A DNA stretch of 64,000 bases from NCBI GenBank assembly GCA_001604185.1, contig LVAV01000005.1, positions 1 through 64,000 of the forward strand, written 5' to 3'. Of the stretch, positions 5,436-22,017 are shown one piece after another; position 1 is the stretch's first letter; the number at the start of each line of letters is the position of its first letter. The notes beneath the pieces are model-generated. The model was given only the letters and a program-made list of their open reading frames with translations. It made no database searches and was not told the DNA's origin. A program made the position numbers and the translations under genes. This stretch comes from Clostridiales bacterium Firm_16 (GTDB lineage: Bacteria > Bacillota > Clostridia > Saccharofermentanales > Saccharofermentanaceae).

Positions 5436-5524
5436 AAGAAATTTATTCTTTCTTTAGACTTTCCGAAGGACTTGTTTATACATGCTCGGTAGAATAGAAT
5501 CATCACAAGGAAAGCGAGGACGCA

Positions 5525-6436
5525 ATGATGAGTTCTGTTCTACAAACCCATGACCTGACCAAGGTCTATAAGCATGTTGCCGTGGTGGATCACGTATCGA
5601 TCCATCTGGATCAGGGCGATATCTACGGATTGATCGGCAGAAACGGTGCAGGTAAGACCACTTTAATGAGAATGATCGGAGGCGTGGCCAGACCCACTTC
5701 CGGCACATATGAGTTTTTCGGAGAAAAAGATAACACAAAGACCATCACCAGGATCGGATGCCTGATCGAGAATCCGTCTCTTTTCCCGGACATGAACGTG
5801 CAGGATAATATGAAGTTCTATAACAAGCTTCTGGGGATCCCGGACAATAAGAATATCGACGAAATCCTGGAAATGGTGGATCTGGCTTCCGCGAGAAAAA
5901 AGAAGACAAAGCAGTTGTCCTTGGGTATGAAGCAGCGTCTGGGCATCGCGATCGCTCTTATCGGATATCCGGACATGCTGATCTTGGATGAACCGATCAA
6001 CGGATTGGATCCGACGGGTATCGTAGAGATCCGAAATCTCCTTCTGAAACTGAATCAAGAACGCGGGGTCACCTTGATGATCTCGTCCCATATCCTGGGA
6101 GAACTGCAGAGACTGGCTACCAAGTACGGCATCATCGAGAAAGGTGTGCTGGTGGAAGAAATGACCCACGAGGCTCTTCTGGAGAAGACCCGTCAGGCGA
6201 TCCAGATCGAAGCGCAGGACGCCAGAGGTGTAACGGTAGTTCTGGAGGAGTTGGGGCTCAAGGACTATAAAGTCATGCCGGACCAGAAAGTCCAGGTATA
6301 TTGCGACACATCCTTAAGCGGCAAGATCAATGCCGCACTCGGATCCAAGGGGATCTATGCGGACAGCATCGGTGTGGTCGGACAAGACCTTGAATCGTAC
6401 TTTGTTGAGAAGATGGGAGGTGCAGATCATGAATAA
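5525..6436 (+). CDS. ABC transporter ATP-binding protein
   Basis: 303 residues. Walker A GRNGAGKTTLM, signature LSLGMKQRLGIA, Walker B LILDEPINGLDP, H-loop SSHILGEL. The sequence type matches the ATPases of bacitracin/lantibiotic-resistance and related ABC-2 exporters. GCGAGGA lies before ATG 5525. Overlaps the following permease by eight bases and is followed by an OmpR-type two-component pair, the usual layout of peptide-antibiotic sensing and detoxification modules. A TAGAAT -10-like box is at 5490-5495. Confidence 0.9.
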   Translation: MMSSVLQTHDLTKVYKHVAVVDHVSIHLDQGDIYGLIGRNGAGKTTLMRMIGGVARPTSGTYEFFGEKDNTKTITRIGCLIENPSLFPDMNVQDNMKFYNKLLGIPDNKNIDEILEMVDLASARKKKTKQLSLGMKQRLGIAIALIGYPDMLILDEPINGLDPTGIVEIRNLLLKLNQERGVTLMISSHILGELQRLATKYGIIEKGVLVEEMTHEALLEKTRQAIQIEAQDARGVTVVLEELGLKDYKVMPDQKVQVYCDTSLSGKINAALGSKGIYADSIGVVGQDLESYFVEKMGGADHE

Positions 6437-20228: not shown

Positions 20229-20242
20229 CTTTCGTAGTCCGG

Positions 20243-20268
20243 AAAGAGCCTGAATTTCAAGGGCTTTT
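20243..20268 (+). terminator. Probable terminator after the P-type ATPase
   Basis: Imperfect hairpin AAAGAGCC/GGGCTTTT with one bulge, about 15 bases after the stop, ending in a short T run. Confidence 0.55.
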
Positions 20269-20330
20269 GTATCTGTTTGCGCAGATTGGTTCTGTCGACT
20301 TTTCCAAATATCTGAAGATAATTTGAAATT

Positions 20331-20390
20331 ACCTATTGACATACTAGGTTGAATCGTGTAACATTCAACTAACCTACTTGCTGGGTAGGT
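20331..20390 (+). promoter_or_regulatory. metY promoter with two ACCTA-N9-TAGGT palindromes
   Basis: Promoter TTGACA (20336-20341), 17-base spacer, TAACAT (20359-20364). Two 19-base palindromes flank it: ACCTATTGACATACTAGGT (20331-20349) over the -35 box, and ACCTACTTGCTGGGTAGGT (20372-20390) around the expected start site. They are 41 bases apart, about four helical turns, as expected of a repressor that blocks the promoter. The binding protein is unknown; an Rrf2/CymR-type sulfur regulator is one guess. Confidence 0.65.
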
Positions 20391-20440
20391 GATTAAACAG
20401 TTCTACAGCGATTCAATATCAGTTTAGAGGATGGTCACAT

Positions 20441-20509
20441 ATGACAAAGCTTCTTATAAAACTGAATAGAGAGAATTACCGTTTCGGACGAATGTGTTGC
20501 TGTTGTTGA
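20441..20509 (+). CDS. Poly-cysteine leader peptide of metY (22 residues)
   Basis: Short ORF starting ATG with AGAGG ten bases upstream and ending RFGRM followed by four consecutive Cys codons (TGT TGC TGT TGT) and TGA. Runs of the codon for the regulated amino acid at the end of a leader are the hallmark of ribosome-mediated attenuation. The following gene, metY, is a sulfhydrylase of methionine/cysteine metabolism. Slow decoding of the Cys codons under cysteine shortage would change folding of the RNA immediately downstream. Confidence 0.75.
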   Translation: MTKLLIKLNRENYRFGRMCCCC

Positions 20510-20736
20510 CACGTGTATAAGACGTTGTGACGGGCGAGAAGAGAAGTGCCTTTTCAATCAGGAAGCACTTCCAGATACTAAGTTTTCCCACAATATAATG
20601 ACTTCCCATAAGTAAGTGCAGAGGCAGGTCTCTTCCTTCCGGGAACACAACGGGTCACGTGCTGTTTTCTTTTTTCACAAACCATAACTGAATAAATCTA
20701 TTTATCACACATTTGATTCGAAAGGAATGTATAACT
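20510..20736 (+). promoter_or_regulatory. Attenuator-like leader RNA of metY
   Basis: AAGTGC (20544-20549), GCACTT (20565-20570) and a second AAGTGC (20614-20619) allow two mutually exclusive hairpins. Longer-range partners also exist: CGTTGTG (20523-20529) with CACAACG (20646-20652), and GAAGAGA (20538-20544) with TCTCTTC (20629-20635). A T-rich tract TTTTCTTTTTT (20665-20675) follows the last partner. A simple strong terminator stem directly before the T tract was not found. No SAM-I riboswitch core or T-box motif was seen. Confidence 0.6.
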
Positions 20737-22017
20737 ATGTCTAACTATAAATTTGAAACTTTGCAGATCCACGTTGGCCAGGAGCAGGCCGATCCCACAA
20801 CCGACGCACGCGCAGTACCGATCTACGCGACCACTTCTTATGTATTTAAGGATGCAGCCCAGGCTGCCGGCCGTTTCGGTCTGACAGAAGGCGGTAACAT
20901 CTATACCCGTCTCATGAATCCGACCTCCGATGTATTTGAGAAGCGTATTGCTGCTCTTGAGGGTGGTGTAGCCGCTCTTGCCGTTGCGTCCGGTGCCGCC
21001 GCGATCACATACGCTTTGCAGAATATTGCCATTGCCGGTGACCACATCGTTGCTTCCAAGAACATCTACGGTGGTTCCTATAACCTCCTTGAGCATACAC
21101 TCCTTGAGCAGGGAATTACGACCACATTTGTTGATCCTGCTGATCCGGAGAATTTCGCGAAAGCCGTTCGTCCGAATACGAAACTGTTCTTCGCAGAAAC
21201 CCTCGGCAATCCAAACTCCGATGTTCTGGACATCGAAGCTGTTTCCGCTATCGCTCACAAGAACGGTGTTCCGCTTATCGTAGATAATACTTTCGCTACA
21301 CCTTATAATCTCCGTCCGATCGAGCATGGTGCCGATATCGTTGTTCACTCTGCTACCAAGTTTATCGGCGGTCACGGAACAACAATGGGTGGTGTGATCG
21401 TTGACGGCGGTAAGTTCGACTGGGCCCAGAACGATAAGTTCCCGGGACTTTCCAAGCCGAATCCGTCTTACCATGGCGTAGTATTTACAGACGCAGTGGG
21501 TAACCTTGCTTACATCATCAAGGCCAGAACGACCTTGCTCCGTGACCAGGGTGCTGCGATCTCTCCGTTTAATTCTTTCCTCCTTCTGCAGGGTCTGGAA
21601 ACACTTTCCCTCCGTGTGGAGCGCCACGTGGAGAATGCACTGAAGGTAGTGGAGTATCTGAAGAATCACCCGCAGGTCAAGAAAGTCAATCATCCGTCTG
21701 TCGATCCGACTCAGCGTGCTCTCTATGACCGCTATTTCCCGAAGGGTGCAGGTTCGATCTTTACCTTCGAACTGAATGGTACAGCTGAACAGGCAAAGAA
21801 GTTTACAGAAGAACTGGATTTGTTCTCCCTTCTGGCTAACGTGGCCGACGTAAAGTCTCTGGTCATCCATCCTGCTTCCACGACACACTCTCAGCTTTCT
21901 GAGGAAGAACTCCTTGATGCCGGCATCACACCGACCACGATCCGTCTTTCCATCGGTACTGAACATATCGATGACATCTTGGCCGATCTGGAATCAGGTT
22001 TTGCAAAAATAAAATAA
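20737..22017 (+). CDS. metY: O-acetylhomoserine sulfhydrylase (MetY-type)
   Basis: 426 residues, Cys/Met-metabolism PLP enzyme family. It adds sulfide to O-acetyl-L-homoserine, giving homocysteine. N-terminal [10 protein letters not shown], substrate region [17 protein letters not shown], and the PLP lysine in [17 protein letters not shown], the form with GGH typical of MetY rather than cystathionine synthases. C-terminal [10 protein letters not shown] is also conserved. Start ATG 20737 follows AAAGGA; an earlier TTG at 20713 is less likely. Monocistronic, controlled by the leader above. Confidence 0.93.

Follow-up and report, generated by a model that had tools for sequence, protein, structure and literature searches.

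In Firmicutes, control of the genes for cysteine and methionine is generally attributed to T-boxes, SAM riboswitches, and CymR. For the mycobacteria, Canestrari and collaborators (2020) reportedly described polycysteine uORF attenuators, leaderless ORFs according to the title. Leaders with runs of Cys codons occur in mycobacteria (PMC1262725), and translational attenuation is stated for the cysteine genes of M. smegmatis in the available part of another account (PMC13236596). In the Rhodobacterales, the uORFC-8-2 motif is described, in the portion of the source at hand, as a Cys-codon terminator-attenuator located before cysS (PMC8632094). Histidine leader peptides of bacilli, situated before hisZ/hisS, were found by a terminator search (PMC2965389, in extract), and leader genes and reinitiation are treated in the accessible part of PMC4833913.

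The leader described here lies upstream of metY in a window of 64,000 nucleotides (the whole stretch of DNA that was analysed) from a Clostridia genome. Going by the available parts of the mycobacterial accounts, it resembles the polycysteine uORFs in that a short ORF in front of sulfur genes carries Cys codons close to its stop, and in its putative translational attenuation, those parts reporting no conserved terminator. Unlike the leaderless mycobacterial ORFs, the Clostridia leader has its own Shine-Dalgarno sequence, a conserved 18-residue peptide, and an invariant CGA-ATG; the host, the existence of stop-type members, and metY as the main target also differ. The uORFC-8-2 motif shares a uORF with tandem Cys codons and an inferred sensing of cysteinyl-tRNA, but in the excerpted description its Cys codons stand at positions 14-15 and a terminator follows, whereas none was found for the metY leader in the scan reported below. 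The bacilli leaders are likewise codon-run leader peptides in Firmicutes, although they concern histidine and, as extracted, owe their discovery to terminators. The arrest peptides TnaC (PMC8429421) and CliM of Clostridia (PMC13183943) are, in the portions available, conserved nascent chains in regulatory upstream ORFs as well, but their sequences and target genes differ, and arrest of the metY leader is a candidate property. No description of the metY leader was found in the literature searched, which included a search with the peptide letters and covered few subscription papers.

The features of the locus are collected in Table 1. The 22-codon ORF with four terminal Cys codons and TGA, which the initial annotation had proposed, was read in the sequence, its stop lying 227 bases before the metY ATG. 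The leader peptide matched no protein family in NCBIfam (five leaders) or Pfam (three leaders). No Rfam element was found near the leader in the window, and loci of 18 relatives gave 0 matches; the one element detected in the window was a TPP riboswitch aptamer (RF00059, 61.5 bits) at positions 246-352.

Table 1. Features of the metY leader locus, in positions of the window.
Feature	Position	Strand	Basis
Sigma-70-like promoter TTGACA-17-TAACAT	20336-20364	+	10/12 positions matched
CCTA-N9-TAGG palindrome spanning the -35 box	20332-20348	+	sequence and counts in relatives
Second CCTA-N9-TAGG palindrome, 3' of the -10 box	20373-20389	+	sequence and counts in relatives
Leader Shine-Dalgarno AGAGGA	20426-20431	+	sequence
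Leader ORF MTKLLIKLNRENYRFGRMCCCC, 22 codons, ATG 20441 to TGA 20507-20509	20441-20509	+	sequence, profile matches, comparative set
Met18 20492-20494; Cys19-22 20495-20506; stop TGA 20507-20509	leader ORF	+	
CGA-ATG, codons Arg17-Met18	20489-20494	+	CGA retained in relatives
5' arm of predicted long-range helix, codons 14-19	20482-20497	+	fold prediction, comparative tests
AAGTGC/GCACTT/AAGTGC segments	20544-20619	+	private to source genome; unlikely to belong to the element
3' arm of predicted helix, extending into the metY Shine-Dalgarno	20707-20723	+	fold prediction, genus conservation
metY Shine-Dalgarno AAAGGA	20721-20726	+	sequence; predicted largely paired
metY, Cys/Met metabolism PLP-dependent enzyme, 426 aa	20737-22017	+	PF01053 Cys_Met_Meta_PP, E 4.2e-134

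When a profile built from seven leaders was run on 115 family genomes, the leader was identified in 20 of the 23 same-genus genomes (E < 1e-8), in all 20 upstream of metY. Two of the three remaining genomes had no fetched metY upstream region, and the contig of the third starts 83 bases before metY. At the family level, the leader was present in 49 of 89 metY upstream regions; these 89 genomes correspond to 30 loci plus 60 regions with one genome included twice, the other 26 of the 115 being left out. The source assembly itself is 3.7 Mb in size with 5.4% contamination, the same-genus genomes ranging from 2.2 to 3.2 Mb, and its other contigs may be foreign.

A scan of a public genome collection with AAYTWYMGNNNNGGACGAATGTG matched at least 119 stretches. 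Among those listed, 80 titles corresponded mostly to Clostridia or its families, with exceptions including Treponema, Listeria, Lentisphaerae, and Acidobacteria. In the 120 matches listed, metY was located within 700 bases in 93 and was absent from that distance in 27, some of whose contigs stop too early. Six non-metY downstream proteins were assigned by Pfam to two NlpA lipoproteins, an ABC ATPase with a NIL domain (MetN type), an ABC permease, URO-D, and ThiF, and several of the 27 listed matches were set aside as chance (L131 of Lentisphaerae, L135 of Acidobacteria, L172, L183 of Listeria, L217, and L224). At the order level, 47 of 188 genomes matched, with 0 for the reversed control pattern. 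A looser pattern, leaving the codons of Gly16 and Arg17 both unconstrained, matched 32 of 391 genomes of the class at 35 places, versus 19 reversed-control matches; the 30 class loci that were read had metY downstream in 22 and a lipoprotein gene in 2, the other 6 being chance-like. In the phylum, 8 of 398 genomes matched, apparently by chance except for the source genome, and the context of the sole other CGA-ATG match (G827) was also chance-like. The leader thus looks confined to the class among the genomes sampled.

The comparative set consisted of 164 leaders before metY, clustered to 111 nonredundant ones. It revealed more than a Cys run: the consensus reads M-x9-R-x-N-[F/Y]-R-x-G-R-M, and, counted back from the end of Met18, the ATG falls precisely on the first of the 18 codons in 90/111 leaders. 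A Cys-containing tail comes after Met18 in 87 of the 111; the 18-residue conserved peptide, the invariant CGA, and the 24 leaders without a Cys tail, in which the stop follows immediately, had not been foreseen. Arg10, which the scan pattern left unconstrained, was Arg in 73/73 scan loci among the matches listed and in 110/111 of the whole set, and its codons in those 73 loci were AGA 39, CGG 11, CGC 10, AGG 5, CGA 4, and CGT 4. All six codons being used, it is therefore the amino acid that is selected. Arg17 was CGA in 111/111, a figure to be read with the fact that the scan pattern imposed CGA on many of them. Free of that bias, CGA was found in all family leaders collected with Arg17 open to every Arg codon (a set into which G046 was entered manually), as well as in 24/24 real class loci versus 0/6 chance ones, so the codon or its nucleotides are selected too. 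Codon 19 in the 24 class loci was Cys in 15, TGA in 6, TAA in 1, Arg in 1, and Gln in 1. At tail residues 2-5 after Met18, Cys accounted for 86 of 271 codons in frame versus 6/439 and 7/420 in the other frames (111 leaders), which makes the sensing of cysteinyl-tRNA a sound inference for Cys-tailed leaders.

Two other accounts of the conserved end were considered. The idea of an RNA-polymerase pause site explaining GGACGAATGTG was weakened by the finding that codon 19 may be CGC, TAA, or CAA, and selenocysteine at TGA was dropped, since TGG, CAA, and TAA are also found there. In G068 (L084, L185), a unit NFRCGRMCCSCSNS is tandemly duplicated in the leader, so that the GGACGAATGTG core is present twice.

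Regarding the interval between leader and gene, fold prediction for the source genome placed the leader end and the metY start region in a long-range helix of 16 pairs, 15 of them at a probability of at least 0.88 and the end pair at 0.78-0.79. Most of the genus keeps the leader end together with an ACACATTTGATTCGAAAGG-like sequence at the metY Shine-Dalgarno, across an intervening stretch of 95-265 bases, and G101, G109, and G110 bear looser versions. Close to the metY start, the pentamer ACATT, complement of AAUGU, was the most frequent of 30 5-mers sharing its composition (33/111, mean 9.6), a count that takes in the genus, compared with 6 of 40 leaderless metY regions. Outside the genus, leaders paired better with their own than with permuted partners (z -8.2, n = 96), also in a stricter set (z -7.5, n = 86) and within codon-15 and Shine-Dalgarno classes (z -7.4), all three scores being without descent correction. 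Equally uncorrected for descent are the ACATT ranking, the value for sense-type leaders (z -7.2, n = 70), and that for the variable bases flanking ACATT, paired in 39/69 versus 27.3 permuted (23 loci preselected for ACATT). For sense-type leaders, these comparisons together support a pairing of leader codons 14-19 with the metY start region.

The signal was not uniform, as seen in further tests that likewise take no account of common descent. Leaders without Phe15 showed weak own-partner pairing (z -1.9, n = 29), no pairing specific to the species was seen for stop-type leaders (z 0.0, n = 16), and before non-metY genes the pairing was not better than shuffled in the 14 loci tested (13 of the 27 listed scan matches plus one class locus), 8 of which lay below the shuffles. 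The local shuffle was beaten in 61 of 96 loci, and the duplex score across the whole interval had a mean z of -0.38, with 22/142 below -1.5. Over 104 loci, a computed block on the core raised the accessibility of the Shine-Dalgarno on average from 0.33 to 0.50, compared with 0.36 for a control block; accessibility rose by more than 0.1 in 53 of the 104 and fell as much in 9. In the source genome the computed effect was ambiguous because the freed Shine-Dalgarno pairs elsewhere: accessibility went from 0.22 to 0.07 in one computation and from 0.19-0.23 to 0.21-0.55 in a second, depending on footprint and fold window. CGA was kept where leader-RBS pairing is weak, and pairing is therefore not the sole reason for it.

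Our main reading, to which we give a probability of roughly one half, is that the leader works in Clostridia as a ribosome-mediated translational attenuator for sulfur amino-acid genes. According to the fold model, when no ribosome occupies the leader end, codons 14-19 would pair upstream of metY and mask its Shine-Dalgarno, and this helix would presumably block initiation. Scarce cysteinyl-tRNA would be the signal: a ribosome waiting at codon 19 or at the next Cys codons would cover the 5' arm, the helix would open, and metY would be translated. With plentiful cysteine, the ribosome would complete the leader and depart, the helix would form, and metY expression would go down. The ribosome is probably slowed at codon 19 by the conserved peptide encoded ahead of it, and transcription is probably gated as well, by a repressor acting at the two paired CCTA-N9-TAGG palindromes. 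Confidence in this attenuator was lowered slightly because of the stop-type leaders and the non-metY loci without a pairing signal. Moreover, Cys codons by themselves account neither for the existence of stop-type leaders nor for the constraint on the peptide and the invariance of CGA. Conservation of the peptide suggests nascent-chain arrest at Met18 as a natural addition, and as the bolder reading. We tentatively entertain, short of believing it, that these leaders form a new Clostridia family of arrest peptides (M-x9-R-x-N-[F/Y]-R-x-G-R-M, usually 18 residues, with an obligatory CGA before Met18) that would sense the sulfur amino-acid state, act at a Cys or stop codon, and uncover the starts of metY and of methionine/sulfur uptake genes. 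Such a leader-peptide switch, if at work in many Clostridia of gut and rumen, would give sulfur control a further layer; the conserved peptide with its invariant CGA offers a concrete, testable case of a nascent chain acting together with a codon.

Attenuation at the level of transcription, either by an intrinsic terminator, as the initial annotation proposed, or by Rho-dependent termination, appears improbable. The hairpin segments are exactly where they had been placed (AAGTGC at 20544-20549 and 20614-20619, GCACTT at 20565-20570) and the T tract said to follow them is recognizable as a T-rich stretch at 20665-20675; Rho has also been suggested for cys leaders of Mycobacterium in the available part of PMC1262725. 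The proposed alternative pairing did not hold up among relatives, GCACTT being present in 0/19 and AAGTGC in 1/19 of the other genus leader regions. A scan of 20229-20760 for terminators, with loops of 3-8 bases only, returned 0 sites, and the core is separated from metY by only about 60 bases in many relatives. Of the earlier proposal of attenuation sensing cysteinyl-tRNA, the conserved leader and its Cys codons were supported; the hairpin switch and the terminator were not. The long-range helix at the metY Shine-Dalgarno is the structure with comparative support, and it points to control of translation.

Control of translation could also mean plain coupling or reinitiation, in which ribosomes translating the leader would open the metY start or feed it, and nothing is sensed. 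One clade has its leader stop 19-27 bases ahead of metY, and PMC4833913, in the part available, proposes in general terms that reinitiation follows leader ORFs. In the source genome, however, 227 bases separate the stop from metY, and coupling explains neither the Cys enrichment nor the conserved peptide; we consider it very improbable. The leader could instead be chiefly an arrest peptide, whose nascent chain R-x-N-[F/Y]-R-x-G-R-M, its Arg17 encoded by CGA, would halt the ribosome with codon 19, Cys or stop, in the A site; a small sulfur metabolite or slow decoding would be the trigger, and the Cys codons would do no more than tune. The six-codon constancy of Arg10, the fixed 18-codon length, CGA in the 24 unbiased class loci, and a stop right behind Met18 in 24/111 leaders (7/24 in the class loci) all agree with it. 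It requires a separate reason for the enrichment of Cys past codon 19, however, and we regard it as rather unlikely.

Upstream of the leader, promoter-like sites at the 10/12 level numbered 2 in the region versus 1.3 expected from shuffles, and TTGAC was found in 75 of 111 relatives. CCTA-N7..11-TAGG-like sites, counted in the 120 bases that precede the leader core, were present in 42/111 relatives versus 1/111 in reversed sequences and a mean of 1.2 in shuffled ones; the CCTA-N9-TAGG palindromes resemble Rrf2/CymR operators. At locus L189, the leader is followed by a lipoprotein gene, NlpA-like by its resemblance to the two Pfam-tested lipoproteins, and then by an Rrf2 regulator gene (5516-5950; PF02082, E 9e-40), whose product is a candidate repressor of the CCTA-N-TAGG sites. 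In seven loci (L133, L147, L160, L179, L182, L216, and L236), a hairpin resembling a terminator and bearing a T run was seen by eye just 5' of the leader, where the promoter usually lies; Rfam gave no match in these seven. Finally, MetY of L148, L165, and L196 is, by coordinates, apparently extended N-terminally by some 46-57 residues, in frame before the usual start motif, with the sequences MSIFGKKKKD, MGLFGRKKKD, and MGFFDRFKLKK.
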